Assembly: GCA_005884455.1 (NCBI GenBank)
Contig: VBCH01000006.1
Span: forward strand, 1 to 49,218
DNA length: 49,218 bases
Direction of reading: 5' to 3'
DNA from: Betaproteobacteria bacterium
GTDB taxonomy: Bacteria > Pseudomonadota > Gammaproteobacteria > Burkholderiales > SG8-39
Shown piece by piece: positions 32,894-46,558 of this stretch; the stretch's first letter is position 1, and each line of letters starts with the position of its first letter. The notes beneath the pieces were generated by a model. The model ran no database searches. It was not told the DNA's origin and saw only the letters and a program-made list of their open reading frames with translations. A program made the position numbers and the translations under genes.

Positions 32894-33543
32894 CGACGCT
32901 GGCGGCGGGGCCAGCGCAAGCCGAGTTAGGCCGGCGCCTCGAAAAAGGAGCCCTGGAACTGGGTCTTGCATTGGGTCGCGGCGACAGGAGCAAGCTCCTT
33001 CAGTATCTCGCGCTCCTGGAGAAATGGAACCAGGTATATAACCTCACCGCCATACGAGACACGGGGAGAATGGTCAGCGGTCACTTGCTTGATTGCCTCT
33101 CCGTAGTCCCATACCTGACTGGAACTCGAATGCTGGATGCCGGCAGCGGCGCGGGATTCCCTGGCATTCCCATTGCGGTGGCCAGGCCTGACATTCAGGT
33201 TGCGTTGCTCGACAGCAATCAAAAAAAAGCAGCCTTCCTCCGGCAGGCGGTAGCAGACCTTCAGTTGAAGAACGCGATCGTGGTATGCGAGCGGGTCGAG
33301 GCGTGGCACGCCGGTGAAAAATTCGATTTCATCATTTCGCGCGCGTTTGCCGAAATTGCCGAGTTCATTGCGCTGACAAAGCATCTGCTCGCGCCGGGCG
33401 GCGTGTTCGCGGCAATGAAGGGTGTCTATCCCTTCGAGGAGATCGAGCGCTTGCCGCCCGACTTCCGCGTGCGGCAGACGCACGCCCTTGCCGTCCCAGG
33501 GCTCGAAGGGGAGCGGCATCTCGTCTTGATCGAGCGCGCATGA
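32890..33543 (+). CDS. rsmG: 16S rRNA (guanine-527-N7)-methyltransferase RsmG (GidB)
   Basis: A 217-residue SAM methyltransferase acting on G527 of 16S rRNA; its loss classically gives low-level streptomycin resistance. The SAM-binding motif [20 protein letters not shown] and the preceding [13 protein letters not shown] segment are diagnostic. It overlaps mnmG upstream and parA downstream by 4 bases each (ATGA at both junctions), giving coupled translation. Confidence 0.96.
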
Positions 33544-34319
33544 CACGCATCCTCGCCGTGGCCAACCAGAAGGGCGGGGTCGGAAAGACCACGACCAGCG
33601 TCAATCTCGCGGCAGGTCTCGCGCAGTCCGGGATGCGCGTGCTGCTGGTGGATCTCGATCCACAGGGCAACGCGACCATGGGCAGCGGCATCGACAAGCG
33701 CACGCTCAGGACCTCGATCTACCAAGTGCTGCTCGGGTTGGCTACCGCCGATTCGGCGCGACAGAAGTCGGAATCAGGCGGGTACGATCTGATTCCCGCC
33801 AACCGCGACCTTGCCGGCGCGGAGATAGAACTGGTCGACCTCGAGCACCGCGAGACGCGCCTGAAAGGCGCCCTTGAGTCGGTCGCCGGGCAGTACGAAT
33901 TCATCCTGCTCGACTGCCCGCCTGCCCTGAACATACTCACCTTGAACGGATTGGTGGCGGCCAATGCAGTGATGATCCCGATGCAGTGCGAGTACTACGC
34001 GCTCGAGGGGCTTTCCGATCTCGTCAACACGATCAAGAGGATCCGCCAGCACCTGAACCCGAAGCTCGATATCGAAGGGCTGCTTCGAACCATGTACGAT
34101 CCGCGCAATGCGCTCGCGCAGCAGGTGTCGGCGCAGTTGAAGGAGCACTTCGGCAAGAAGGTGTACGAGACCGTGATCCCGCGCAACGTACGGCTTGCCG
34201 AAGCGCCGAGCTTTGGCGCTCCCGCTGTGAGCCTCGATCGCGAGTGCAAAGGCTCGCAAGCGTACGTCGCCCTCGCGGGCGAGATCCTTTCGCGGAACGG
34301 TATCACTGCGGCGGCATGA
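33540..34319 (+). CDS. parA: Chromosome partitioning ATPase ParA (Soj)
   Basis: A 259-residue Walker-type ATPase with deviant Walker A NQKGGVGKTTTSVNLAAG and the motif LLVDLDPQGNATMGSG. It moves ParB-parS complexes over the nucleoid to separate sister origins. It follows rsmG with a 4-base overlap and precedes parB by 13 bases. parS is 2.6 kb upstream, and DnaA boxes are about 10 kb away. Confidence 0.96.
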   Translation: MTRILAVANQKGGVGKTTTSVNLAAGLAQSGMRVLLVDLDPQGNATMGSGIDKRTLRTSIYQVLLGLATADSARQKSESGGYDLIPANRDLAGAEIELVDLEHRETRLKGALESVAGQYEFILLDCPPALNILTLNGLVAANAVMIPMQCEYYALEGLSDLVNTIKRIRQHLNPKLDIEGLLRTMYDPRNALAQQVSAQLKEHFGKKVYETVIPRNVRLAEAPSFGAPAVSLDRECKGSQAYVALAGEILSRNGITAAA

Positions 34320-34332
34320 GCGGGGAACGCCG

Positions 34333-35196
34333 GTGAAACTCAAGGGACTGGGAAGGGGTCTGGACGCCCTACTCGACAAGGATGGGGAGGCGGGGCCCGT
34401 CTCCGAGCGACAAGCCACGCTGCGCATCGAACAGTTGCAGCGCGGCCGCTACCAGCCGCGCACGAAGATGGACGACAGCTCGCTGGAAGAGCTCGCAGCC
34501 TCGATCAGGACTCAGGGCCTGATGCAGCCCATTCTCGTGCGGCCGGCCGGGGACGACCGCTACGAGATCATCGCAGGAGAGCGGCGCTGGCGCGCAGCGA
34601 AAATCGCCGGTCTCGCGGAGGTTCCGGCGCTCGTTCGCGACGTGCCGGACTCGTCGGCCCTCGCGATGGCATTGGTCGAGAACATCCAGCGGGAAAATCT
34701 CAATCCGCTCGAGGAAGCCGGCGGCGTGCAGCGGCTGATCGGCGAGTTCAAACTCACGCACCAGGAAGCGGCCGAGGCGATCGGGCGCTCCCGCACGGCA
34801 ACCACGAACTTACTGAGGTTGCTGAATTTGCAAAAGGCGGTACAGGCACTGGTTTTTGAAGGAAAGCTCGAGATGGGACACGCGCGCGCGCTGCTCGCGC
34901 TCGAGGGACGGCAGCAGGAGAGCGCCGCGAAGCGGGTTGCCGCCCAGGCGCTCTCCGTGCGCCAGACCGAGCGGCTGGTCAACGCCATCCTTCATCCTAC
35001 TGCCAAGGCCAGGCGCAGGCGCGGATCCGACCGCGACATCGCGCGACTCGAGGAAGAATTGTCCGAAGAGATCGGTACCAGAATCGAGATCAAGCCTGGC
35101 AAAAAAGGTGCAGGGAAACTGGTCGTCAGCTATTCGAGTCACGATCACCTGGACGACCTCCTCTCCAGGTTCCGCCGCAAGCGGTCTGCCTCCTAG
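34333..35196 (+). CDS. parB: Chromosome partitioning protein ParB (Spo0J)
   Basis: A 287-residue CTP-dependent DNA clamp. The N-terminal KLKGLGRGLDALL helix contacts ParA. The ParB/Srx CTPase motif includes IIAGERRWRAAK and LVENIQRENLNPLEEA. The helix-turn-helix (LTHQEAAEAIGRSRTATTNLLRLL) recognises parS, and the C-terminal dimerisation domain is present. The start is GTG 34333, preceded by GGGGAA; an ATG overlapping the parA stop runs quickly into a stop and is excluded. The catabolic genes start 29 bases later. Confidence 0.96.
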   Translation: MKLKGLGRGLDALLDKDGEAGPVSERQATLRIEQLQRGRYQPRTKMDDSSLEELAASIRTQGLMQPILVRPAGDDRYEIIAGERRWRAAKIAGLAEVPALVRDVPDSSALAMALVENIQRENLNPLEEAGGVQRLIGEFKLTHQEAAEAIGRSRTATTNLLRLLNLQKAVQALVFEGKLEMGHARALLALEGRQQESAAKRVAAQALSVRQTERLVNAILHPTAKARRRRGSDRDIARLEEELSEEIGTRIEIKPGKKGAGKLVVSYSSHDHLDDLLSRFRRKRSAS

Positions 35197-35225
35197 CGGC
35201 CGGCCGACGCCAAAGAGAGAAATCG

Positions 35226-36446
35226 ATGGGCACGCGCCACGTGTGGCCCCGAGAAGGCGTTTCCCGCATCCCTTATTGGATCTATTCCGACCCGGAGATC
35301 TATGCCCGGGAGCAGGAGCGCATTTTCTGCGGTCCGAGCTGGAACTACGTGGCGCTCGAGGCGGAGCTGCCGCGCCCGGGCGATTTCAAGCGTACTTTCA
35401 TAGGCGAAAAGCCGGTCGTGGTGGTGCGCGATGAAGAAGACTCGATCAACGTCGTTGAGAATCGTTGTGCCCACCGAGGCGTGCAGTTCTGCCAGAAGCA
35501 TCTCGGCAGCGTCGCGGAGTTCATGTGTCCCTACCACCAATGGACTTATGACTTGAAAGGCAATCTGATCGGCGTGCCGTTCAGGCGCGGTGTGAAGAAG
35601 CAGGGCGGTATGCCCGCGGATTTCGATTTGAAGAACCACGGGTTGCGCAGGCTCGGGGTCGCCCGCCGCCACGGCGTGATCTTCGCCTCCTTTGCGTCGG
35701 ATCTGGAACCGCTCGAAGAGTATTTCGGGCCTTCGATGCTGGCGCTTTTCGACCGTGTATTCGATGGCCGGGAGCTGCGCGTGCTCGGCTACTCGCGCCA
35801 GCTGACACCCGCCAACTGGAAGCTGATGTTCGAGAACATCAAGGACCCCTACCATGCGAGCCTGCTGCACGTGTTCCTGGTGAGCTTCGGCCTGTTCCGA
35901 GCCGATCAGCCCTCGAAAGTGCAAATGGACGCAACCGGCCGTCACGGCGCGCTGATTTCCTGGCGAGGGGATCAGAAGAAGACAGAGGACCACGCGGACA
36001 TGAAGTCCCTCATCGACAACTTCAAGCTGCAGGATTCGACGCTACTCGAGCCGGTGCGCGAATTTCCCGAGTACACGGTGGTGATGACGACCCTGTGGCC
36101 CAACCTCATCATCCAGCAGCAGTCGAACACTCTGGCGATGCGCCAGCTCGTCACGCGTGGCCCGGCGGCGTTCGAGCTCGCCTGGACCTACTTCGGCTAC
36201 GCGGACGACGACGAAGACATGACCCGCCGCAGGCTGCGGCAGGCGAACCTCATGGGACCGGCGGGATTCGTCTCGATCGACGACAGCGAGGTGATGAAAT
36301 TCTCCCAGAGCGGCGTCGGTCCGTATCCTGAAAGGGCCGGCGTTATGGAGATGGGCGGGCGCGACTGGAAGGACGAGCAGCACATGGTCACCGAGTCGGT
36401 AATCCGCGCCTTCTACGCCTACTACAGACGGGTAATGGAACTTTAA
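35226..36446 (+). CDS. Aromatic ring-hydroxylating oxygenase, large (alpha) subunit
   Basis: A 406-residue Rieske non-heme iron oxygenase alpha subunit. The Rieske cluster ligands are Cys81-x-His83 and Cys101-x2-His104. The catalytic site shows Asp207, His210 and His215 in DPYHASLLH, the same D-x2-H-x4-H spacing as naphthalene dioxygenase. The N-terminal half (VWPREGVSRIPYWIY, IFCGPSWNYVALEAELP) resembles large subunits of salicylate 5-hydroxylase and anthranilate-type dioxygenases, so an aromatic acid is the likely substrate; the exact one is inference. Beta subunit and Rieske ferredoxin genes follow. No reductase gene is in the window, so electrons must come from one encoded elsewhere. Confidence 0.92.
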   Translation: MGTRHVWPREGVSRIPYWIYSDPEIYAREQERIFCGPSWNYVALEAELPRPGDFKRTFIGEKPVVVVRDEEDSINVVENRCAHRGVQFCQKHLGSVAEFMCPYHQWTYDLKGNLIGVPFRRGVKKQGGMPADFDLKNHGLRRLGVARRHGVIFASFASDLEPLEEYFGPSMLALFDRVFDGRELRVLGYSRQLTPANWKLMFENIKDPYHASLLHVFLVSFGLFRADQPSKVQMDATGRHGALISWRGDQKKTEDHADMKSLIDNFKLQDSTLLEPVREFPEYTVVMTTLWPNLIIQQQSNTLAMRQLVTRGPAAFELAWTYFGYADDDEDMTRRRLRQANLMGPAGFVSIDDSEVMKFSQSGVGPYPERAGVMEMGGRDWKDEQHMVTESVIRAFYAYYRRVMEL

Positions 36447-36491
36447 CAAGCTGTTAATCATCAATAAAACTACTAGAAGCGAACGTTCGTT
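36443..36491. promoter_or_regulatory. Two palindromes between oxygenase alpha and beta genes
   Basis: The 57-base AT-rich gap holds TTAACA-3-TGTTAA (36443-36457), which overlaps the alpha-subunit stop codon, and a palindrome with core CGAACGTTCG (36480-36489) extended to 36478-36491 with one mismatched pair. The second resembles TetR-type operators. Such elements are unexpected inside an operon whose other junctions are nearly gapless. They suggest an internal promoter or operator. Confidence 0.5.
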
Positions 36492-36503
36492 CTTTTGACC
36501 ATA

Positions 36504-37004
36504 ATGAGCGCGGCAAAACGCTATCTCACCCTGAATTCCCGGGACCTGCGCCTGGAGCTGGAGGAGCTCTACGCCGCCTACACCGCCTGCCTCGACGAGG
36601 AGCGCTTCGAGGAATGGCCCGAGTTTTTCGTCGAGCACTGTCTCTACAAGATCGTTCCTCGCGAGAACTTCGAGCGCGGGCTGCCGCTCGCGACCTGGCT
36701 TTGCGAAAGCAAGGGGTATCTCGCGGACCGCGTCACCGCCATCCGCAAGACCGCGGTATACGCGCCGCGTTACGTGCGCCGCATGGTGAGCGGCGTCCGA
36801 GTCCTGGGCTGGAATGACGGGATGCTCGAGGTGCGCGCGAACTATGTCGCGCTCGAAACGCTGCAAGACGAGCTCACCCGGGTCTTCAATACCGGTCAAT
36901 ATCGCGACAAGCTCGTCGTCGAGGACGGCAGGTTAAAATTCAAGGAAAAGCTCTGCATCTTCGACAGCCTCCTCGTCCCGAACAGCCTGATCTATCCCCT
37001 CTGA
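36504..37004 (+). CDS. Aromatic ring-hydroxylating oxygenase, small (beta) subunit
   Basis: A 166-residue beta subunit with the NTF2-like (cone) fold seen in ring-hydroxylating dioxygenase small subunits. Typical features are an N-terminal helix leading to EELYAAYTACLDEERFEEWPEFF, a central YAPRYVRRMVSGVRVLGW strand pair, and the C-terminal KLVVEDGRLKFKEKLCIFDS. It packs as a structural subunit with alpha in an alpha3beta3 enzyme. ATG 36504 is preferred; an in-frame TTG three codons upstream is less likely. The ferredoxin starts one base after its stop. Confidence 0.9.
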   Translation: MSAAKRYLTLNSRDLRLELEELYAAYTACLDEERFEEWPEFFVEHCLYKIVPRENFERGLPLATWLCESKGYLADRVTAIRKTAVYAPRYVRRMVSGVRVLGWNDGMLEVRANYVALETLQDELTRVFNTGQYRDKLVVEDGRLKFKEKLCIFDSLLVPNSLIYPL

Positions 37005-37005
37005 C

Positions 37006-37317
37006 ATGAGTGATAACTGGGTCAGAGTCGCGAGCGCCTCGGATGTTCCGGAAGACGGGACGCTGCTCGTCAATCTCGGCGCGGAGCCGGTGTGCCTGTA
37101 CAACCTCGGTGGAAAGATTTTCGCCACGCACGACACCTGCACTCACGGGCAGGCGAGCCTCGCCGACGGCTTCATCGAAGGCGAGGAGATCGAATGCCCG
37201 CTTCACCAGGGGAAATTTCATATCGCAACCGGCAAGGCGGTCGGCGCTCCCTGCACCGAGGACATCCGCACCTACGCCGTGAAGATCGAAAACGGCGCGG
37301 TGCTGCTCAAGGAATAG
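37006..37317 (+). CDS. Rieske [2Fe-2S] ferredoxin of the oxygenase system
   Basis: A 103-residue soluble Rieske ferredoxin. The cluster ligands are Cys45-Thr-His47 and Cys64-Pro-Leu-His67 (CPLHQGKFH). Length and motifs match NagAb/NahAb-type electron carriers that pass electrons to the alpha subunit. It begins one base after the beta-subunit stop, so it is surely co-transcribed. The matching NAD(P)H-dependent reductase is not in this window. Confidence 0.93.
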   Translation: MSDNWVRVASASDVPEDGTLLVNLGAEPVCLYNLGGKIFATHDTCTHGQASLADGFIEGEEIECPLHQGKFHIATGKAVGAPCTEDIRTYAVKIENGAVLLKE

Positions 37318-37324
37318 CGAGGCC

Positions 37325-38305
37325 GTGGAAAGACTGTCTCTGACGCTTGCCATCGGCGACTACGAGCACACGCGCGACGTCGTTACGGGACAAGTGCCCG
37401 TTCAAGGCGTGAGCCTCAACGTGCTCACCCTGCCGCCGGAGGAAGCGTTCTTTCGCTTCACTTTTTTCCGGGAATGGGAAGTGTCGGAAATGTCCATGGG
37501 CAAGTACGTGTCCTTGCGCTCGCAGGAGGACAACGGCATCGCCGCGATCCCCGTGTTCCCCTCGCGCGTGTTTCGGCAATCGATGATCTACGTGCGCGAC
37601 GGCGGCAGGATCGACCGCCCGGAGCAGCTGAAGGGCAAGCGTATCGGGATTCCGGAGTGGGCGCAGACCGCGGTGATCTATTCGCGCGGTTACCTCACCC
37701 ACCAGGCCGAGGTGCCGCTCGCGTCGGTCGAATGGGTCCAGGCGGGAGTGAACGAGGCGGGGCGCGTTGAGAAAGTGAAGCCGAAGCTGCCCGAAGGAGT
37801 GCAACTCCGCCCGGAGCCCCGACACTCTCTGAACGACATGCTGCTTGCAGGGGATATCGACGCCGTGCTTTCCGCGCGGCCGCCGCGCGACTTCGGCAGC
37901 GGGATCCGGCGGCTGTTTCCGGACTACGAAGCGATCGAAGCGGCCTATTTCAGGGAAACCGGGATCTTTCCCATCATGCACGTGATCGTGATCAAGACCG
38001 AGGTGCTGGAGCGCCACCCCTGGGTCGCGATGAATCTCTACAAGGCCTTCGAGGAGGCGAAGCGCCGCTCGATCGCGCGGCTCTCCGACATCACGGCTTC
38101 GCACGCGCCGCTCGCCTGGCTCGCGCCGTACGCCGAGCGGATGAAAGGCCTCTTCGGCGAGGACTTCTGGCCCTACGGGCTGGAGAAGAACCGCACCACG
38201 CTTCAGGCCTTCGTCGATTTTGCGTTCGAACAAGGTGTGTGCCACAGGCGCCTCGAGCTCGAGGAGCTGTTTCCGAAGCAGGTGTTGACCTCGTTCAAAG
38301 TATGA
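37325..38305 (+). CDS. 4,5-dihydroxyphthalate decarboxylase-like protein
   Basis: A 326-residue protein with a periplasmic-binding-protein-like fold. It lacks a signal peptide, beginning ERLSLTLAIGDYEHTRD, and shows the segments GIPEWAQTAVIYSRGYL and GVNEAGRVEKV. This resembles 4,5-dihydroxyphthalate decarboxylase (Pht5/PhtD type) and its many uncharacterised relatives near oxygenase genes. A cytoplasmic decarboxylase or hydratase-like role on a hydroxylated aromatic acid would fit the operon, but a soluble binding protein cannot be excluded. The start is GTG 37325, 7 bases after the ferredoxin stop. Its stop overlaps the next start (ATGA). Confidence 0.75.
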   Translation: MERLSLTLAIGDYEHTRDVVTGQVPVQGVSLNVLTLPPEEAFFRFTFFREWEVSEMSMGKYVSLRSQEDNGIAAIPVFPSRVFRQSMIYVRDGGRIDRPEQLKGKRIGIPEWAQTAVIYSRGYLTHQAEVPLASVEWVQAGVNEAGRVEKVKPKLPEGVQLRPEPRHSLNDMLLAGDIDAVLSARPPRDFGSGIRRLFPDYEAIEAAYFRETGIFPIMHVIVIKTEVLERHPWVAMNLYKAFEEAKRRSIARLSDITASHAPLAWLAPYAERMKGLFGEDFWPYGLEKNRTTLQAFVDFAFEQGVCHRRLELEELFPKQVLTSFKV

Positions 38306-39306
38306 AGATGGGTGCCGACGCGATCTGGATCACCGAGGCCGAAGTCGTTCAGCTGATGGATCTCAGGGACGCGATCGCCGCTCTCGAGGCCGCGATGCGC
38401 GAGGAAGCGCGCGGCGAAGCGCACAACATGACCAAGACCCTGCTGCAATACGGAAAGAACAACCTGCATGCGATCGGCGGAAAGCTCGGGAATCTGGTGG
38501 GCACGAAGACGTGGACCCACACCCAGGGCGGCACCTGCCCGCTTCTGCTGCTGTGGAGCGCAGACGACGGTTCCCTCGTCGCGGTGATCGAGGCGTTCGC
38601 GCTCGGAAACCTGCGCACCGGGGGCATCTCGGGAGTGGCCGCCGACTGGATGGCGAGGCGGGATGCGAAGGTTATGGCGATCGCCGGGACGGGCAAACAA
38701 GCGCTCGCTCAAGTCGGCACTATGCTGGCGGTGCGGCCGATCGAACGGCTGCGGATTTACAGCCCGCGCGAAGACTCGCGCCAGGCGTTCGCCGCAAGAG
38801 CGCGCGAGGAGTTCGGTATCGAAGCCGAAGTCTCCGCTTCGGTGAGCGACGCATGCAAAGGAGCACAGATCGTGACGCTGGTGACGCGGGCGGCGCAGCC
38901 TTTTCTCACAGCAGCAATGCTCGACAAAGGCGCCCACCTGAACGCCGTGGGCGCGATCGCGCCGGACCGGGAGGAATTCGCGCAGGACGTCTTTGCGCGC
39001 GCGACGATGGTGGCCGTGGACAATCTTCCCGGCGTGCAGCAGCTCTCGCGCGAGTTCATGACTCGATACGCATCCGCCGGGTGGGACAAGGTGATGTCGC
39101 TCTCCGCCCTTATCGCCTCCGGCCGCAGGCGCTCGGGCACGGACGACGTATCGCTCTTCAAGGCGATGGGCATGGGCATTTCCGATCTCGCTCTCGGCGC
39201 GGAATTGCTGAAGCGGGCGAGAGAGCGCGGCGCGGGCCGCGCAATCCCCCAGCCGGGGAAGATGAAACCGCGGCTCGCGGGGGCGGGAGCCAGAAACCCC
39301 GTCTAG
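38302..39306 (+). CDS. Ornithine cyclodeaminase / mu-crystallin family oxidoreductase
   Basis: A 334-residue NAD(P)-dependent enzyme of the OCD/mu-crystallin family. The Rossmann motif is at about 125-140 (VMAIAGTGKQALAQ), and the preceding active-site half contains KTWTHTQGG and LRTGGISGVAADWMA. Members act as ornithine cyclodeaminases, ketimine reductases or amino-acid dehydrogenases. In an aromatic operon it might reduce an imine or handle an amino-substituted compound, but the substrate cannot be read from sequence. ATG 38302 overlaps the previous stop; a longer reading of 21 codons is discounted. Confidence 0.82.
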   Translation: MKMGADAIWITEAEVVQLMDLRDAIAALEAAMREEARGEAHNMTKTLLQYGKNNLHAIGGKLGNLVGTKTWTHTQGGTCPLLLLWSADDGSLVAVIEAFALGNLRTGGISGVAADWMARRDAKVMAIAGTGKQALAQVGTMLAVRPIERLRIYSPREDSRQAFAARAREEFGIEAEVSASVSDACKGAQIVTLVTRAAQPFLTAAMLDKGAHLNAVGAIAPDREEFAQDVFARATMVAVDNLPGVQQLSREFMTRYASAGWDKVMSLSALIASGRRRSGTDDVSLFKAMGMGISDLALGAELLKRARERGAGRAIPQPGKMKPRLAGAGARNPV

Positions 39307-39341
39307 GGAGTACGATTCTCTTCCTCGGCCGCGGAGGTCTT

Positions 39342-40472
39342 ATGAACGAGTTCAAGAAGGATTTTGAAGACATGCAGGGTCGCTTCTCCGACCGCTCCGG
39401 TCAGCGCGCGCGGGACGAGAACCTGTATTGGACGCCTATCGTCGTCACCCAGCGCGAGATCGATGCCGAAATCGAGCGCCTGGCGAGCCTGCCCGTGCCT
39501 GCGAACGGCCGGCGCGAGTCGCTGATCGTGCATCCGCTCGCCGCGGCCAATGCGCCCGGTTTCGCGCCCGGGATCCAGGTCAAGCTATCCGTGCTCAAGC
39601 CGGGCGAGAAGAGCGCGGCGTTCCGGCATAACGCCACGGAGGTCAATTTCTGCATCCGCGGTTCCGGCCATACGCTGGTTGCGGGGAAGCGCATCGCCTT
39701 CGCGCAATACGACGTCTGGAACCATCCCTCCTACGCAGCCTACCGTCACGTCAACGACGGCAAGGAGCTTCAGGTCCGCCTCAGCTATTCGAACGCGCCC
39801 CTTCTTCAGCACATGCAGGTCTATCTTCCCGAGGACGTGCCCTCCGCGGAGCTGCATCCGGTGGAGGACGCAGAAGACAAAGCGCGCTCCGGCGATCCGC
39901 GCCGCAAGAGTCCCTACGGGATGATCCGCATCGGCGCGGACGGCGGCATGCTGATGCCGTACGAGATTCTCATCAATCCGGATGTGGTGGTGTCGAGGCC
40001 TCTGCACTTTCCCTGGAAGGAAGTGAAGCGCGAGCTCGACAAGCTCGAGGCTCTCGGGAAAGAGTACGCCGGGCGCAGGCTCTATATGATGTACAACCCC
40101 GTCACCGGCCGCACCAACGGCATCACGCCGAACTTTTTCGCCACCATGACGATTCGCCCGCCAAAAATCGTCGACCGGCCGCACCGCCACGTTTCCGCCG
40201 CGATCAACTATTATTTCCATGGCAAGGGGTATTCGACGGTCGCGGGTAATCGCTACGAATGGGCTGCGGGGGACTTGATGCTCTCCGCCCCGGGATGGGC
40301 GGTGCACAACCACGCTGCCTACGGCGATTACGTATACGAGCTCACGGTACAGGACCAACCGCTCAATATCTTCATGGAGTCGCTGCTCTGGCAGGAGAAC
40401 CTGAAGAAGCCCGCGGCGCTCCTCGGGAGCGAGCCGGGCTTCGAGACGAACCGCGGCAAGGCGGCGGCGTAG
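39342..40472 (+). CDS. Bicupin ring-cleavage dioxygenase-like protein (gentisate 1,2-dioxygenase-like)
   Basis: A 376-residue two-cupin protein with the general layout of gentisate/1-hydroxy-2-naphthoate/salicylate dioxygenases. The N-terminal cupin (about 80-145) has only scattered His (His96, His128, His136). The C-terminal cupin (about 265-345), introduced by the typical YNPVTG segment, carries His281, His283 and His322/His324, so the best metal site is in the second cupin. In characterised gentisate dioxygenases the iron site is usually in the first. The start ATG has a GCGGAGG ribosome-binding site. It is the last plus-strand gene of the oxygenase cluster and converges on a Bug receptor gene. 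Ring cleavage is the likely role; the substrate is unknown. Confidence 0.8.
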   Translation: MNEFKKDFEDMQGRFSDRSGQRARDENLYWTPIVVTQREIDAEIERLASLPVPANGRRESLIVHPLAAANAPGFAPGIQVKLSVLKPGEKSAAFRHNATEVNFCIRGSGHTLVAGKRIAFAQYDVWNHPSYAAYRHVNDGKELQVRLSYSNAPLLQHMQVYLPEDVPSAELHPVEDAEDKARSGDPRRKSPYGMIRIGADGGMLMPYEILINPDVVVSRPLHFPWKEVKRELDKLEALGKEYAGRRLYMMYNPVTGRTNGITPNFFATMTIRPPKIVDRPHRHVSAAINYYFHGKGYSTVAGNRYEWAAGDLMLSAPGWAVHNHAAYGDYVYELTVQDQPLNIFMESLLWQENLKKPAALLGSEPGFETNRGKAAA

Positions 40473-40501
40473 TCTTCGCCCGGAGCAAAGCCGGAGCGGG
40501 C

Positions 40502-41485
40502 TCACTCCGGTTTGATCTGCGCCTCGCGGGCGACCTTCGTGTACTTCGCGAGGTCGCTTTTCATCGCTTCGAGCAGCTGCTCGGGCGTGGTTCCGACCGC
40601 TTCGAGACCGACCGTATTCATTCTTTCCTTGACGATCTGCGGGTCCCGCACGACGCGGTTGATCTCGCCGTTCAGGCGATCGATGATGGGCCGCGGCGTT
40701 CCGGCGGGCGCCATGACCCCGAGCCAGACGTCGACGGTGTAGCCGGGCAGCGGACCCGCTTCGGCGATCGTCGGTACCTCGGGCAGAATCGCCGTGCGCG
40801 AGGAGCCCGCCATCGCGATCGGGCGCAGCTTTCCCGATTTGAAATGAGGCAGCAGCGAATTGACGGCTGCGATCGTGAAATCGATCTCCCCGGACAGGAG
40901 CGCTGGGATGATGCCGGCGGAGCCCTTGTAGGGAACGTGCACGACGTTGATTCCGGTCATCGAGCGCAGCAGCTCGACGGCGAAGTGATGCGGCGACCCG
41001 ATGCCGGCGGTTCCGTACGTCAGTGGACGCGGCGATGCTTTCGCGTACGCGATGAATTCCTTCAGCGAATGCACTGACATGCTCGAGTTCACGGTCAGCC
41101 CGAACGGAATCGTCGCGGCGAGCGAAACCGGCTCGAAGTCCTTGATCGGGTCATACGGAAGCTTGGCGCCGATGCCTGCGGCCATGACGTGCGAGGACTC
41201 GGACATCAGTATGGTGTAGCCGTCCGCGGGCTGCTTCGCGACGAACTCGCGCGCGATGTTGCCTCCTGCGCCGGGCTTGTTCTCGACCACGAGGGGATGA
41301 CCCAGCACAGGCTGCAGGCGCTCCGCCAGGAGGCGGGAAAGGTAGTCAGGCGAGCCGCCCGGAGGTAAGGGCACGACGAACTTGATCGGCCGGCTCGGCC
41401 AGGCCCCCTGCGATCGAGCCTCGCCAAGAGGCAACGCAATCACCGCGCTCAGCGCCAACGCAGTCCAGGTTCGCAACTTGAGCAT
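40502..41485 (-). CDS. Bug/TctC-type tripartite tricarboxylate transporter receptor protein
   Basis: A 327-residue periplasmic solute receptor with a signal peptide (residues 1-26). The family signatures are WPSRPIKFVVPLPPGGSPD, LVVENKPGAGGNIA, INVVHVPYKGSAGIIPALLSGEIDF and LPEVPTIAEAG. Bug proteins bind small carboxylates for TctAB membrane partners, which are not in this window, so it is an orphan receptor. The start is supported by a GGAGGGGAA ribosome-binding site. The ThDP enzyme gene ends 17 bases upstream. It may supply the substrate for the neighbouring enzymes; this is inference. Confidence 0.93.
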   Translation of the reverse strand: MLKLRTWTALALSAVIALPLGEARSQGAWPSRPIKFVVPLPPGGSPDYLSRLLAERLQPVLGHPLVVENKPGAGGNIAREFVAKQPADGYTILMSESSHVMAAGIGAKLPYDPIKDFEPVSLAATIPFGLTVNSSMSVHSLKEFIAYAKASPRPLTYGTAGIGSPHHFAVELLRSMTGINVVHVPYKGSAGIIPALLSGEIDFTIAAVNSLLPHFKSGKLRPIAMAGSSRTAILPEVPTIAEAGPLPGYTVDVWLGVMAPAGTPRPIIDRLNGEINRVVRDPQIVKERMNTVGLEAVGTTPEQLLEAMKSDLAKYTKVAREAQIKPE

Positions 41486-41502
41486 TTCCCCTCCGTTCGC
41501 GC

Positions 41503-43287
41503 TCAACGCTTCTGGCTCGCGCCCGAGCCGCCCATGTTGGTGTCGTATCCCGGCGCGACGCGTACGTCGACGACGCACACGGCGCCGTTGCGCGCGGACT
41601 GGATTCCTTTCTCGATCGCCGGTTTCAGCTCCGACGCCTTCGCGACCGGGCCGATGCCTTCGGCGCCTTGCGCTCGTGCCATCATCGCGATGTCGATGTC
41701 CGGTCCGCTGATGCGCTGGCCGATCCAGCGGTTCTCCACCGGACGAGAGCGTTCCTTCGCCACTCGTTCCTGGTGCAGCTCGTCGTTGAAGAAGGAACGG
41801 TTGTTGGCGACGAGGATGAGGCAGGGAATGCCGTAATGCGCCGCGGTCCAGAGCGCGGTCGCGCCCATCAGGAAGTCGCCGTCGCCCATGATGGCGACGG
41901 GAAGCCGGCCGCTGTCCTTCAGCGCCAGCGCCGCGCCCACGGTGATGCCGGGCCCCGCGCCGACTCCGCCGCCGCCCTCCGAACCGATGTAATCGAGCGG
42001 ATGACGGAAATGACGGTAAGCGCCGTTCCAGCCTAGCGGCAGCCGCGTGATGCAGACGTCCACGTCCTTTGTCGCGGCATTCAATGCATCGGCGAGCGTG
42101 CGGATCGAAACGACCTCGGCGGCGGCGTCCGGCAAGGGCGCGGGTTTCGCCGCGACCGCCCCGGGACGCGGCTTCACGGCATCGAGCAGCAACGGCACTG
42201 CGATATCCGGCTCGCACATCATGTAGACATCGATCGCCGCCAGGCCCTGGTAGTCCATGCTCCAGCCGCGGTGGATGTGCGCGTCGGGCGAGATCTGGAT
42301 CACTTTCGCGCCCACCGGGTCCGCGCCCCAGGCCGCTTTCAGCGCGCCCGCGAGATCGACCCAATCGAGGGACAGCACCACATCGGCCTCGCGCAGCAGC
42401 TTCGCCGCATCGGGCGAAAGGAAGGTCGCCGGCGGTGCGGCGTGCAGCGGGTGATCGGTGGGAAACGCCGCGCCGACCTTGATGTCGGTGAAGGCGCGCG
42501 CGTGGAGCTTCTCGGCGAGCGCGACGCGCTGCTTCCAGCACGATTCGCTTCTGGAGACGCGTCCGGCGAGGATCACCGGGTGCTTCGCACCCGAGAGAAG
42601 CTTCGCCGCCGCGTCGACGAGGTGCTCGGCCGGCAGCACCGGGTCGGGCGCGCGATAGCGCTTGGCATCGGGAAGCGGCGGAAGCGCGCCGATCTTCGCC
42701 TCCTGCAAGCCGGCGTCGAGATTGATGTACGTCGGACCGCGCGGCGCCGTATTGGCGATCTGAGCGGCGCGCAGGATCGCCTCGTAAGCCGCCGGCACCG
42801 ACGCCGGCTGGTTGTCCCACTTGGTGTAGTCGCGCACCAGCGCCGCCTGGTCGGAAGCGGTGTGGATCCAGTCGATCCAGGGACGGCGCTTCGCAGCGTC
42901 CCAGGGGCCGGTCGCGCCGAGAACGAGCATCGGCATGCGGTCGCACCAGGCATTGAAGATCGCCATGCTCGCGTGCATGAGCCCCACGTTGGAGTGCACT
43001 ACTGCGCCCATCATCCGGTCGGAGGCCTTGGCGTAGCCCTGCGCGATCGCCACCGCCGACTCTTCGTGCAGGCACAGCAGCATCTGCGGCCGCGTGTTGC
43101 CGAGATAGTTCACGATGCTGTCGTGCAGGCCGCGGTAGCTCGCTCCCGGATTCAGCGCGAGGAAGGGAATGTCGAGCGTGCGCAGCACCGCTGCGATCGC
43201 GTCGCTCCCCCAGATTTCCTTTTGCTCGGGACCCGCGACCGGCGCTTCGGCGCGAACGGTCGGCGAAAGGTTTTCCTTGGCGTTCAT
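41503..43287 (-). CDS. Thiamine diphosphate-dependent enzyme (acetolactate synthase/benzoylformate decarboxylase superfamily)
   Basis: A 594-residue enzyme with the PYR, central and PP domains of the superfamily. The catalytic glutamate is expected at Glu75 (LCLHEESAVAIAQGYA). The ThDP/Mg motif begins Gly468-Asp469-Gly470 (MGDGDFLMGATAL) and ends about 28 residues later at VANNRSFF. It lacks features that would mark it as the biosynthetic acetolactate synthase, and no small subunit is nearby. A 2-oxoacid decarboxylase or related C-C lyase acting on an aromatic or organic acid is plausible. The Bug receptor gene follows after 17 bases. Confidence 0.85.
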   Translation of the reverse strand: MNAKENLSPTVRAEAPVAGPEQKEIWGSDAIAAVLRTLDIPFLALNPGASYRGLHDSIVNYLGNTRPQMLLCLHEESAVAIAQGYAKASDRMMGAVVHSNVGLMHASMAIFNAWCDRMPMLVLGATGPWDAAKRRPWIDWIHTASDQAALVRDYTKWDNQPASVPAAYEAILRAAQIANTAPRGPTYINLDAGLQEAKIGALPPLPDAKRYRAPDPVLPAEHLVDAAAKLLSGAKHPVILAGRVSRSESCWKQRVALAEKLHARAFTDIKVGAAFPTDHPLHAAPPATFLSPDAAKLLREADVVLSLDWVDLAGALKAAWGADPVGAKVIQISPDAHIHRGWSMDYQGLAAIDVYMMCEPDIAVPLLLDAVKPRPGAVAAKPAPLPDAAAEVVSIRTLADALNAATKDVDVCITRLPLGWNGAYRHFRHPLDYIGSEGGGGVGAGPGITVGAALALKDSGRLPVAIMGDGDFLMGATALWTAAHYGIPCLILVANNRSFFNDELHQERVAKERSRPVENRWIGQRISGPDIDIAMMARAQGAEGIGPVAKASELKPAIEKGIQSARNGAVCVVDVRVAPGYDTNMGGSGASQKR

Positions 43288-43378: not shown

Positions 43379-44449
43379 TCAGCTGCGCGGCACGGCGAGC
43401 GTTCCGACGGCGGCGAAGAGCGCTTCGACCGATTCGCGCGAAAGATTGCGCGTGATGAACACGATGCGCGAGCGCCGCTCCTCGCCCGCCCAGGCTTCGA
43501 GCGTGACCGGCGGGTGGAATACGTGCTGTGCCCCCTGCACGAGGACGGGCCCGCGTTCGCCCGCGACGTTGACGAGGCCTTTCACGCGCAGCAGATCGGA
43601 ACCGCGCAGCGAGGTCAGCACCTGCACTGCGGCCGAGAATGTGTCCCAGGTGAAGGGTTTTTCGAACCACAGGCAGAACGAGCGGATCGAGGCGTCGTGC
43701 GCCCCGGCACGCACGCGCTCGCCGAGATAGGCGCCTTCGGCGCGCGCCTCGCCCGAGGGCGCGAGCCAGCGCTCGAGGTCTTGGGGCGTCGCGCGCGTGC
43801 TTCTCAGCCCGACATCGCGCAGGAAGGCGACGTCCAGCTCGCCGTTTACCGCTACGGTGCGCGCGGCGTAGGGGTTCATCCTCGCCAGTCTCGCTTCGAG
43901 GGCCGCAACCGCGCCTGGTGCGGCGATGTCGCTCTTGGTAATGACGATGCGGTCGGCGACCGCCGCCTGCTTCGCCGCTTCGGGCATGTCGTCGAGGTTC
44001 TTCAGGCCGTTCACCGCGTCGACCAGCGTCACCACGCAGTCCAGCCGGTACTGCGCGCCGAGCATCGCGTCGGTCTGCAGCGTGTGCAGCACCGGCACCG
44101 GGTCGGCGAGGCCTGTGGTCTCGACAAAGACGCGGTCGAAGTCGATCACTGCGCCCGCCCGGCGCTTGATGAAGAGCTCGCGCAAGGTCTCCTGCAGGTC
44201 GGTGCGCACCGTGCAGCACAGGCAGCCGTTGGAGAGCAGCGTCATGCTCTCGGAGGACGAGGCGAGGAGCTCGTGGTCGATGCCGACCTCGCCGAACTCG
44301 TTGATGATGACCGCCGCCCGGTTCATCCCGGGATCGCGCAGCAGGCGCTTGAGGAGCGTGGTCTTTCCGCTGCCGAGAAATCCGGTGATCAGGCTGACCG
44401 GGAGCTTTCCCGCCAGCGAATCGCGCGTAGTCGCCGGGCTGGTGATCAA
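43379..44449 (-). CDS. CobW/COG0523-family GTPase metallochaperone
   Basis: A 356-residue G3E GTPase. Walker A is at residues 23-32 (GFLGSGKTTLLK) and the metal-binding motif Cys76-Leu-Cys78-Cys79 is in SNGCLCCTVRTDL. The NKxD-like element reads VITKSD, and a C-terminal CobW_C domain follows. Such proteins deliver Zn or other metals to target enzymes. The start is TTG 44447-44449, overlapping the LVIVD gene stop by 3 to 4 bases; no in-frame ATG is close, and the long upstream in-frame extension has no family match. Tight coupling suggests the beta-propeller upstream, or an enzyme of this cluster, as metal client; this is inference. Confidence 0.88.
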   Translation of the reverse strand: MITSPATTRDSLAGKLPVSLITGFLGSGKTTLLKRLLRDPGMNRAAVIINEFGEVGIDHELLASSSESMTLLSNGCLCCTVRTDLQETLRELFIKRRAGAVIDFDRVFVETTGLADPVPVLHTLQTDAMLGAQYRLDCVVTLVDAVNGLKNLDDMPEAAKQAAVADRIVITKSDIAAPGAVAALEARLARMNPYAARTVAVNGELDVAFLRDVGLRSTRATPQDLERWLAPSGEARAEGAYLGERVRAGAHDASIRSFCLWFEKPFTWDTFSAAVQVLTSLRGSDLLRVKGLVNVAGERGPVLVQGAQHVFHPPVTLEAWAGEERRSRIVFITRNLSRESVEALFAAVGTLAVPRS

Positions 44450-45693
44450 ATGGTCATCTCGAGGACGTACAGTCCGCCGGCGAAGCGATCGACGGTGTAG
44501 ACCAGCCTGCGGTCGTCGACGTACACGTCGTTCAGCTGGATCGACCCCGCGCGCGAGAGCTTGGGCGCTGGGGGCACGAAGTAGGCGATTTCCTGCGGCT
44601 GGTAGGGGTTGGTCACGTCGAAGGCGCGCACGCCACCGCCGAAGAACGTTCCTACGATGATGTCTTCGGATTTCCAGGAGCCCGGCACAGGCAGGTTCTC
44701 GTGGAGGTTGTGGGCGCCGAAGCGGCCGCCGTTTCTCGCGAAGGCCTCGACCGGCGGCATGGGGAAGGTGCTGATCGGCACGGGATTGCTCTCGAGGCGC
44801 GTATCCACCACCCAGACGAGCTTGGGCCAGTCCTTCCCGTCGGGATGGACGCACTCGTCGCTCACGATGAGGAGCTCGCGCCCGAAAAGCGGCAGCACCG
44901 TATGGGTGAACCCGGTGTAGGGCGGCGAATAGCGCCAGTGCGAGACAAGCTTCGGCCGAGATTTGTCGGCGATGTCGTGGATCACCGCGCCGCCGGAGAT
45001 GTAGCCGACGTAGGCGCGGTCGGGCCGCTGGGGAAAGACGTTGGTGTTGTGCGCGCGAAAGCCCGAATCGAACTTGGGATGGCGCGCAGGCGGAGGCGTG
45101 GAGTCGCCCACGCGCGTTCCCGGCAGCCACCAGCGCCCCACCTCTTCGGGCTTCGCTGGCTTGCGCACGTCGACGATGCGATAGAACTGGTCGTCCGCCG
45201 GGTTCGTAGGCTGGAAGTCAGGCGCGCCCGATGCCATGTGCACGTACTCGCCGTCCACGAACCACACCGCGTGCACCCCGCGCGAATGCTCACCCGAGGC
45301 GTCGAAGTGCGAAATCAGGTTCGGATTTTGCGGCTTGCTGATGTCGAAGAGGTCGAATCCGGCGGGCTTGGTATTCACGGCGCTCGCCTGGTATGCGACC
45401 GCCATGATGTCGCCGACTACGTCGAGCGAGTTGGAGCGCACTTTCGCGTGCGGCAGCTCGGTCTGCACCACCACGCGGGGATTTTTCGGGTCGGTCACGT
45501 CCACTGCCGTGAAATTCTTCGGCGCGGACTCGTGCGCGAGCCACAATATTCTCCGCCCGTCGCGCGCGAGCTGCATGCCCATGCCCTCGCCGATGCCGCC
45601 GAACCCCTGCAGCTCGTGGTGCGAGAGGAGCTTCATGTTGAGCGAGAGCGTCTGGTCGGGTCGGGGTTTCATTCCGGGAAGCGGCTGAGCCAT
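44446..45693 (-). CDS. LVIVD-repeat beta-propeller protein
   Basis: A 415-residue protein of repeated blade units containing V[DF]DVTDPKNP / LFDISKPQNP / IVDVRKPAKP / AFDVTNPYQP, which is the LVIVD repeat. Four blades carry a histidine at an equivalent position: His141 (GVHAVWF), His215 (RAHNTNVF), His264 (FTHTVLPL) and His328 (GAHNLHEN), suggesting a metal site on the propeller axis as in selenium-binding/methanethiol-oxidase-like proteins. No signal peptide is seen. ATG 45693 has only a weak ribosome-binding site. It is coupled to the CobW gene. The enzymatic role is unknown. Confidence 0.85.
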   Translation of the reverse strand: MAQPLPGMKPRPDQTLSLNMKLLSHHELQGFGGIGEGMGMQLARDGRRILWLAHESAPKNFTAVDVTDPKNPRVVVQTELPHAKVRSNSLDVVGDIMAVAYQASAVNTKPAGFDLFDISKPQNPNLISHFDASGEHSRGVHAVWFVDGEYVHMASGAPDFQPTNPADDQFYRIVDVRKPAKPEEVGRWWLPGTRVGDSTPPPARHPKFDSGFRAHNTNVFPQRPDRAYVGYISGGAVIHDIADKSRPKLVSHWRYSPPYTGFTHTVLPLFGRELLIVSDECVHPDGKDWPKLVWVVDTRLESNPVPISTFPMPPVEAFARNGGRFGAHNLHENLPVPGSWKSEDIIVGTFFGGGVRAFDVTNPYQPQEIAYFVPPAPKLSRAGSIQLNDVYVDDRRLVYTVDRFAGGLYVLEMTI

Positions 45694-45828
45694 TTTGAGG
45701 TCTTGGTTCGAGGTGAAAGCAGAGGCGTCATGGTACCGCCTGGACGTTCTATCGGGGGAATCCAGTCGCTTGATTGACGCACCCGACCGATACCGGATCT
45801 CGTCCTTAACGAACTTCGCCCCGCGGCG

Positions 45829-46371
45829 TTGACGCACGCGCCCGGAGCGCGCCCGATGGCGTGCGATCCAGACATTGCGATACCACCGGGCGCGCGTCGC
45901 CGCGTTGCTCGCATCATGTCGGGATGCGGCGAGCGAGGCGCGGGAGCGGCGGGCAGGACGGCCAAAGGCGGCGTGTATCACCAGCGTAAGCCGCGCGCGA
46001 GTCCCCTCTATCAATGCGCCGATCGCCACCTCGCGGAACTGCGATCCGAGGGGCGCCTGCAGCGCCTGCTCGAAGAGCACGTCATCGAGCGCTTCCTCAA
46101 ATGCGGCGACCCGCACCACGGGTTCGCGCGCGTGTATTGCCCCGAATGCCGTCACGACTACCTGCTCGCGTTTTCGTGCAAGGCGCGGTATTTCTGCCCG
46201 AGCTGTCACCAGAAGCGCGTGCTCGCCTATGGGGATTGGGTCGAGGAAAACGTTCTTGCGCCCGTACCTCACCGGCAATACGTCTTCACCGTGCTGCGAA
46301 TGCTGCGGCCGATCTTCTCGCGCAAGCGCGGACTGCTCGGGGAGCTGTGCCGTATCGTGGAACGAAATTAA
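45829..46371 (+). pseudogene. IS91-family transposase, N-terminal remnant
   Basis: The likely original start is the GTG at 45973, giving 132 residues; the frame is open back to 45829. It encodes the N-terminal zinc-binding domain of IS91-type transposases: FLKCGDPHHGFARVYC, then CPECRHDY, FSCKARYFCPSCHQKR. The reading continues to LLGELCRIVERN and stops. The whole Y2 rolling-circle transposase catalytic part (about 250 or more residues) is missing. The stop appears to come from truncation, because the bases after it have no similarity to the family. This marks a transposition or deletion scar. Confidence 0.8.
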
Positions 46372-46558
46372 CATAAGACCGGTTGTGGATCACCCAGGAC
46401 AGTTCAAGCCTCGGATTGCAGCGCGCCAGCGAGCCGCCCCAGCTTCAGCGGCGAATTGAATCTCCTATCTTTCACTGCGGAAGGATCAATGCCGAGAGCG
46501 TCATACCGGATCGTCAAGAGTTGAACGGATCGATCCAGCCGCTACACCTAACAGACCC

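Follow-up and report, generated by a model that had tools for sequence, protein, structure and literature searches.

A six-gene Rieske oxygenase and bicupin cluster behind parB and a candidate route for the breakdown of an aromatic monocarboxylic acid

Which aromatic acid could be degraded by a set of genes that combines a Rieske oxygenase with a decarboxylase-like protein, a protein of the ornithine cyclodeaminase (OCD) family and a bicupin? The question is raised by a 49,218-nucleotide stretch of DNA from a soil bacterium of the Betaproteobacteria (contig VBCH01000006.1, our C33; hereafter the window), part of a 3.6 Mb genome rated 96% complete. At positions 35226-40472, six co-directional open reading frames (ORFs) on the + strand, all open and tightly spaced, follow parB. 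We believe on balance that they form the core of an uncharacterised catabolic pathway, in which an aromatic monocarboxylic acid would undergo hydroxylation, ring opening, reduction or decarboxylation, hydration and aldol cleavage. This reading builds on gene content, conservation, family membership and conserved active-site residues, all of which were observed directly. To our knowledge, the six-gene combination matches no standard salicylate, phthalate or anthranilate operon. In the literature consulted (open-licence PMC papers only, which is weak evidence) we found neither a description of this gene set nor anything relevant on a dipicolinate route. The six genes are:

35226-36446, + strand: Rieske oxygenase alpha subunit, aryl-carboxylate group (Pfam Rieske and Ring_hydroxyl_A, NCBIfam, PDB, tree, residues)
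36504-37004, + strand: Rieske oxygenase beta subunit (Pfam Ring_hydroxyl_B; AndAd NCBIfam model, 142 bits)
37006-37317, + strand: Rieske ferredoxin (Pfam Rieske; AndAb NCBIfam model, 105 bits)
37325-38305, + strand: 4,5-dihydroxyphthalate-decarboxylase-like (DHPD-like) protein (PDB 9jp7, E 2.1e-69; alignment with 13 relatives)
38302-39306, + strand: OCD/mu-crystallin-family oxidoreductase without the cyclodeaminase Asp (Pfam PF02423, E 1.2e-43; 18-sequence alignment; AlphaFold)
39342-40472, + strand: bicupin, predicted ring-cleaving dioxygenase with the three-His motif H281/H283/H322 in the C-terminal cupin (Pfam Cupin_2; model)

An initial annotation of this DNA had named the same six genes in one direction directly behind parB, and this was confirmed by the ORFs, the Pfam matches, the match to 9jp7 and a gap of 29 bases between parB and the alpha gene. 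The start of the beta gene was taken as ATG, with an in-frame TTG at 36495, and the DHPD-like and OCD genes overlap by 4 bases (ATGA). As had also been noted, neither a reductase nor a dedicated regulator is encoded among the six genes; the best match in the own genome reached only 26.7 bits for an AndAa/HcaD-type reductase and 118.7 bits (29% identity) for a NagAa-type reductase. A scan of positions 34900-41000 gave no sigma-70-like promoter (1.1 expected) and four terminator-like sites (5.1 expected), which is no excess, and the cluster may be transcribed from the parAB transcript. In G+C content, overall and at third positions, the six genes are similar to parA and parB. The order rsmG-parA-parB followed by the aromatic cluster (33540-35226) recurs in all four further genomes read from the genus.

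We compared 44 loci (L numbers), namely the window and 43 loci from named genomes found by a scan with the bicupin alignment. Neighbouring genes were accepted at a tblastn E<=1e-12 with identity floors of 45% for alpha, 35% for beta, 50% for DHPD-like proteins, 45% for aldehyde dehydrogenase, 40% for short-chain dehydrogenase/reductase, 25% for TctC and 30% for HpaG-like proteins. L025, L027, L029 and L030 are the same contigs as L045, L065, L054 and L048 and were dropped from the tree and the counts. Gene ends in relatives were taken from a simple gene-finder script, and some are wrong. Four of the five other genus genomes with an alpha match were read, and G001 only to its match.

Active sites of the oxygenase and the bicupin

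Among solved structures the alpha subunit matches best the salicylate 5-hydroxylase NagG of Ralstonia sp. U2 (7c8z, 486 bits), with 7vju, deposited as a Rieske domain protein, at 348 bits and TphA2 at 347 bits, and the alpha-beta-ferredoxin order is that of NagGH/NagAb, as in the nagG record L099. An identity as AndA anthranilate dioxygenase was rejected, with all three subunits under the NCBIfam cut-offs (AndAc 440 of 750 bits, AndAd 142 of 230, AndAb 105 of 150). A network study (PMC9060491) groups hydroxypicolinate monooxygenase together with NagG, TphA2, AndAc and AhdA1c as aryl-carboxylate enzymes with one common carboxylate-binding Arg, and gives H210, H215 and D356 as the iron ligands of TphA2. 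By alignment to TphA2 the ligands of alpha are H210, H215 and D353. Of the residues D207-H210-H215 listed in the initial annotation, both histidines are thus ligands, and D207 is a conserved neighbour of the ligands and not one of them. We take D207 to be the electron-bridging Asp.

The carboxylate Arg is R306 in alpha (R323 in NagG) and is kept in all 50 rows of the alpha alignment, and M287 is as in NagG. Q299, the counterpart of the NagG active-site residue Gln316, is also found in 14 of 14 NagG-clade rows and one of five PicB-type rows, and is Ile in the AndAc, AhdA1c-type and TphA2 rows. Since Q299 and R306 are kept and the TphA2 second-carboxylate residues S243 and R390 have no counterparts in alpha, the residues would favour the addition of one hydroxyl to a monocarboxylic acid, in a site that resembles that of NagG but is altered. 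Differences from the NagG type are L218, W291 and A304 against Phe, Phe and Ser/Thr, and mostly F224 and L243 against Trp and Met. The combination L218/W291/Q299/A304, at positions chosen after the alignment had been viewed, is shared by every one of the 26 rows in the bicupin-linked clades and does not occur in the remaining 24, and L218, W291 and A304 occur in 0 of 14 NagG-clade rows. In L090, where the bicupin is no more than 46% identical, the alpha shares L218 and Q299 but has other residues at positions 291 and 304.

In the tree of these 50 rows, one node gives rise to the window's clade (10 rows, 100/100), a gammaproteobacterial clade (13 rows, 100/100), L062/L063, L077, the NagG clade (14 rows, 100/99) and a PicB-type clade (5 rows, 100/100; L090 joins weakly). 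The label PicB for L103 comes from annotated neighbours (2,5-dihydroxypyridine dioxygenase, amidohydrolase, isochorismatase family); we assume the PicB pathway behind this clade label, and we take the pNL1 row, annotated merely as a Rieske protein, to be AhdA1c. The best tree places alpha outside the clade that holds NagG, the PicB-type clade, AndAc and the AhdA1c-type and TphA2 rows. The first four sets comprise 26 rows, 21 of them with a bicupin on the same stretch; L026, L028, L031 and L032 end early (contig or fetched stretch) and L033 shows none. Approximately unbiased (AU) tests did not reject a single clade of these 26 rows (p 0.41), nor a union of the window's clade with the NagG clade (p 0.145) or with the PicB-type clade (p 0.187). 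The phylogenetic check proposed with the initial annotation put alpha firmly inside no characterised clade; a sister position to the NagG or PicB-type clade is compatible with the AU tests, as is more than one deep order. In a neighbouring genus (L032, L033; G033, G008) we also observed a second alpha/beta copy, 69-70% identical, with an FAH-family gene and TctC genes, and with no bicupin in the stretch seen.

The fold of the bicupin model is nearest to salicylate 1,2-dioxygenase (SDO, 2phd; Z 29.9, root-mean-square deviation 3.4, 289 aligned residues) and next to gentisate dioxygenase (3bu7, Z 28.6), enzymes with which it shares the three-His motif as well. An SDO study (PMC10306065) names active-site residues between 83 and 178, in the first half of the 368-residue chain, and describes Arg127 as essential for stabilising deprotonated salicylate and Asp174 as recognising the 5-OH of gentisate. 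The bicupin, by contrast, has its one three-His site in the C-terminal cupin. For this comparison the positions of the SDO metal ligands are our assumption. In an alignment of bicupins from 32 of the 44 loci (L066 was omitted because the matched stretch holds a stop), the counterparts of Arg127 and Asp174 are Asn289 and Thr335, invariant in all 32, and both are also present in the distant copies of L090, L091, L114 and L115. SDO Arg83 and His162 do have conserved counterparts, the former in the RR pair 245-246, of which L090 and L091 keep the first Arg alone, and Gln108 has no certain placement.

Because the three-His motif is C-terminal and the two key gentisate/salicylate residues are replaced, the name gentisate dioxygenase is unsuitable and should not be used; sequence and model describe a predicted ring-cleaving dioxygenase with a C-terminal site. 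The gentisate-type cleavage expected in the initial annotation was not borne out, as the bicupin is without the residues that recognise gentisate. The bicupin also falls short of the NCBIfam gentisate_1_2 cut-off (65.5 of 442.1 bits), and its best NCBIfam match, the 5-aminosalicylate 1,2-dioxygenase MabB (NF049978), gives 84 bits, far under the cut-off of 650. The sequence match to 3bu7 crosses the halves, as a circular permutation would, but this idea was given up: in the structural alignment to SDO the two chains correspond in order (10-347 to 28-359), so what differs is the place of the metal motif and not the order of the chain. A 42% relative of the bicupin with the same HRH...N...T pattern was found in an actinobacterium, on a plasmid of Rhodococcus sp. 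JS3073 (L091, 12001-13047), in a stretch that also carries an HcaD-type reductase relative and an FAH-family gene. A link of this strain to 4-nitroanisole degradation, present only as a cited title in PMC12442393, has no bearing on the bicupin gene.

These data bear on the simplest alternative, an ordinary but diverged salicylate-gentisate operon made of a salicylate 5-hydroxylase and a gentisate dioxygenase. It would explain why NagG is the closest solved structure, why Q299 and M287 are as in NagG and why the AU test does not reject the window's clade together with the NagG clade. We nevertheless consider it improbable, since the NagG clade of the best tree excludes the window, L218/W291/A304 separate the bicupin-linked rows from it, Thr335 and Asn289 stand in place of the SDO residues, and neither a canonical gtdA nor a fumarylpyruvate-hydrolase-type partner was found near the bicupin in any of the 44 loci at the thresholds used. 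A standard gentisate operon was rejected on this last count, and the NagGH operon also differs in its NagAa reductase and linked gentisate dioxygenase, neither of which is encoded in the cluster. The initial view that the genes do not match a standard salicylate, phthalate or anthranilate operon is upheld by the same 44 loci and by the position of alpha outside the reference clades. As far as tested, the cluster contains known families in a new combination, with a distinct bicupin subfamily.

The OCD-fold and decarboxylase-like proteins

The OCD protein matches Pfam PF02423 with 149.7 bits (cut-off 24), and its AlphaFold model has a mean predicted local distance difference test (pLDDT) score of 90.2. 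It resembles the archaeal alanine dehydrogenase and imine reductases of the family (1vll, 6t3e, 6rqa; Z 39-41), with alanine dehydrogenase at Z 40.6, pyrroline-2-carboxylate reductase at 40.3 and iminosuccinate reductase at 39.3, followed by ornithine cyclodeaminase at 35.9. K70 and R106, which we take to be carboxylate-binding residues, are invariant in 18 of 18 sequences. An identity as ornithine cyclodeaminase was rejected, as Ile220 replaces the catalytic Asp in the same 18 sequences; we take this Asp, in position and role, to be Asp228 of the Pseudomonas putida enzyme. We know of no role for the OCD family in aromatic catabolism.

An amino- or N-heteroaromatic acid, as suggested in the initial annotation, is a possible substrate of such a cluster: the oxygenase would hydroxylate it, the bicupin would open the ring and the OCD-fold enzyme would reduce or deaminate an imino acid. 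The fold matches of the OCD protein and its invariant K70/R106 fit this scheme. So do the Asn289 of all 32 bicupins in place of the SDO arginine that aids deprotonation of the phenol OH, the hydroxypicolinate monooxygenase in the same oxygenase group, a DHPD-like gene (36-40%) that adjoins alpha in three of the five PicB-type rows (L039, L040, L043), and molybdopterin-hydroxylase genes near the bicupin in one locus, L057. We still find the scheme unlikely. NicX, PicC-type and maleamate-amidase-type proteins gave no match in the bicupin loci (deaminases were not searched for), and the HpaH and HpaI genes beside relatives, described below, suggest a carbocyclic C7 skeleton. Carbocyclic hints also come from some Paraburkholderia versions, which have VanA/VanB (L056, L088, L089) or a CoA ligase and an enoyl-CoA hydratase (L059-L061; families read on L060 only) nearby.

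The DHPD-like protein has no Pfam match and no signal peptide apparent by eye. It aligns over 320 of 326 residues with the 4,5-dihydroxyphthalate decarboxylase 9jp7 (237 bits) and is decarboxylase-like by this full-length likeness, which comes from the overall alignment and not from active-site residues. With its E value of 2.1e-69, this match also speaks for an aromatic dicarboxylic, phthalate-like substrate, from which the DHPD-like protein would remove one carboxyl before or after ring opening; the HpaG-like (decarboxylase/isomerase family) and CMD-family proteins of relatives point the same way. The missing counterparts of TphA2 S243 and R390 argue against it. Moreover, no cis-diol dehydrogenase was recognised among the six genes, nor the dioxygenase-dehydrogenase partners of the phthalate system, and DHPD was not found in 30 of the 44 loci, some of them cut by contig ends. 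We regard a dicarboxylic substrate as quite unlikely.

Linkage and candidate lower-pathway genes in other genomes

The closest named loci are metagenome-assembled genomes (MAGs) of Betaproteobacteria. Alpha lies directly 3' of parB in four other genomes of the genus (L025, L026, L027 and L028), and as far as the contigs reach the whole set is present in L025 and L027, and up to the OCD gene in L026. Within 10 kb of the bicupin, the 44 loci carry alpha (21), beta (22), ferredoxin (10), OCD (25), DHPD-like (14), DapA-fold aldolase (23) and CMD-family (21) genes. Of 300 genomes sampled evenly across the order, five have the bicupin and 25 an alpha (E<=1e-130); four of the five bicupin genomes, of which two belong to the window's genus, have an alpha of this group within 5 kb. 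In the fifth (G011, L113, same contig as L052), OCD, DHPD-like, ferredoxin and aldolase genes are present, with no close alpha of this group. Pairwise distances among bicupins correlate with those of alpha (r=0.95, 22 loci), OCD (0.86, 27), DHPD-like (0.92, 14) and aldolase (0.84, 23), and in each case none of 2000 permutations was as high. The gene set is conserved across loci, so the grouping is not due to chance, and the six-gene set is a real unit. Neighbouring genes without a common pathway would fit the absence of alpha or OCD from many bicupin loci; given the operon-like spacing and a linkage that recurs in Beta-, Gamma- and Alphaproteobacteria and also on plasmids, we hold this to be extremely improbable.

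Clusters were also found in MAG records labelled Bordetella parapertussis or Klebsiella pneumoniae (L054, L067, L073, L081), labels that look doubtful. A MerR-type helix-turn-helix (HTH) domain fused to a citrate-synthase domain is encoded near the bicupin in 13 of the 44 loci, mostly divergently (L030 8206-9639 and L029 8962-10380, both on the - strand; matches in L048, L051, L054, L056-L061, L080, L082, L084 and L087). This protein is a candidate regulator or enzyme, and the own genome gave only 28-29% partial matches to it.

Relatives also carry candidate genes for later steps. In Trinickia terrae (L085), the OCD and bicupin genes stand ahead of genes for HpaH, HpaI and SSADH (TIGR01780), and all of these three pass the curated cut-offs. 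The loci of T. terrae, Paraburkholderia heleia and P. kururiensis have no alpha. L090 (Cupriavidus necator N-1 pBB1), L114 and L115 (members of the order) have HpaG-like, OCD, bicupin, beta, alpha, ferredoxin, HcaD/AndAa-like reductase and HpaH genes on one stretch, with HpaI in L090 and L114 and none found in the L115 stretch; HpaH and HpaI are above the cut-off there, as is HpaH in L115. Close to the alpha genes of L076 and L078 there are HpaH relatives too (58-59%). The best match of the L030 DapA-fold aldolase is TIGR02313 (292 bits, cut-off 397), and the own genome has a 33% relative of this aldolase on another contig. The own genome also encodes HpaH, an RraA-type protein and HpaI in a row on contig C142 (L125, 8019-10221). 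These HpaH, HpaI and aldolase neighbours point to 2-oxo-heptenedioate-type intermediates that would yield pyruvate and a C4 semialdehyde.

The pathway for a monocarboxylic acid could then run as follows. The alpha, beta and ferredoxin proteins, fed by a reductase encoded elsewhere, would hydroxylate an aryl acid that R306 anchors, much as salicylate 5-hydroxylase does, and the bicupin, with its C-terminal Fe(II) three-His site, would open the ring beside the carboxylated carbon to give a 2-oxo-heptadienedioate-type acid. The OCD-fold enzyme with NAD(P)H may reduce this fission product, at a C=N bond or a conjugated enone or enamine, and the DHPD-like enzyme (a CMD-family or HpaG-like protein in relatives) may perform a decarboxylation or isomerisation. 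Hydration and a retro-aldol step would then release pyruvate and a C4 semialdehyde, catalysed in relatives by the DapA-fold aldolase or by HpaH and HpaI, and in the own genome perhaps by the HpaH-RraA-HpaI group on C142. That a C-terminal-site bicupin opens the ring, the OCD-fold enzyme reduces the product and the route joins HpaH/HpaI, in a pathway not described before, is a proposal we make tentatively. It resembles the homoprotocatechuate HpaG-HpaH-HpaI route in the HpaH and HpaI genes near OCD and bicupin, and differs in that ring cleavage is assigned to the bicupin (HpaD was not seen, and none was sought).

Several observations weigh against the proposed pathway. The HpaG-like proteins are under the HpaG cut-off (182-188 of 276 bits), and the aldolase of L030 passes the cut-off for true DapA (270 bits, cut-off 206). 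The HpaH and HpaI of the own genome score 347 and 349 bits, just short of their cut-offs (351.5 and 368.8); as they also have no linkage to the cluster and lie beside an RraA-type gene, their function may be in a different pathway. Confidence in the bicupin model is middling (mean pLDDT 72, and below 50 at 171-190, 211-216, 252-263 and 340-376). The search for the same gene set in other genomes, suggested with the initial annotation, was successful in L045 and L065 of the same genus and in L048 of another genus, where other genes interrupt the six; with the window, these are the only four of the 44 loci with all six genes. Among 32 loci with at least 7 kb upstream and at least 4 kb downstream, 16 have alpha and 20 have OCD; 6 have both, 14 OCD alone of the two, 10 only alpha and 2 neither, so that neither gene is required in every version. 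Finally, the distance correlations are Mantel correlations without a species-tree control and ignore shared host ancestry.

If the pathway is real, the aromatic catabolism of bacteria gains one more oxygenase clade and bicupin subfamily, and the OCD fold acquires a function in it. The substrate can be tested directly, since named isolates of Paraburkholderia, Achromobacter, Trinickia and Cupriavidus have related loci. Names such as gentisate dioxygenase, anthranilate dioxygenase and ornithine cyclodeaminase are best avoided for genes of this kind.

Neighbouring genes in the window

Two further genes lie beyond the bicupin on the opposite strand:

40502-41488, - strand: TctC/Bug-type solute-binding protein, convergent, with an approximate start; may be an uptake component (next to the bicupin also in L045, L046, L047 and L065)
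41503-43287, - strand: thiamine-diphosphate enzyme, PRK08327-like, possibly of the same system (Pfam/NCBIfam; homologues in L057 and L058)

In Achromobacter sp. HZ34 (L057) and Bordetella genomosp. 13 (L058), a 53-54% homologue of the thiamine enzyme is encoded near HTH-citrate synthase, TctC, OCD and bicupin genes, and an aldehyde dehydrogenase is also near the set. Because these relatives occur near the set in both genomes, the system may include the two convergent genes of the window, for TctC and the thiamine enzyme. Further along the window (44446-46374, - strand), a gene with a sub-threshold LVIVD-repeat match stands beside a CobW GTPase gene and accompanies the cluster only in loci of the genus.

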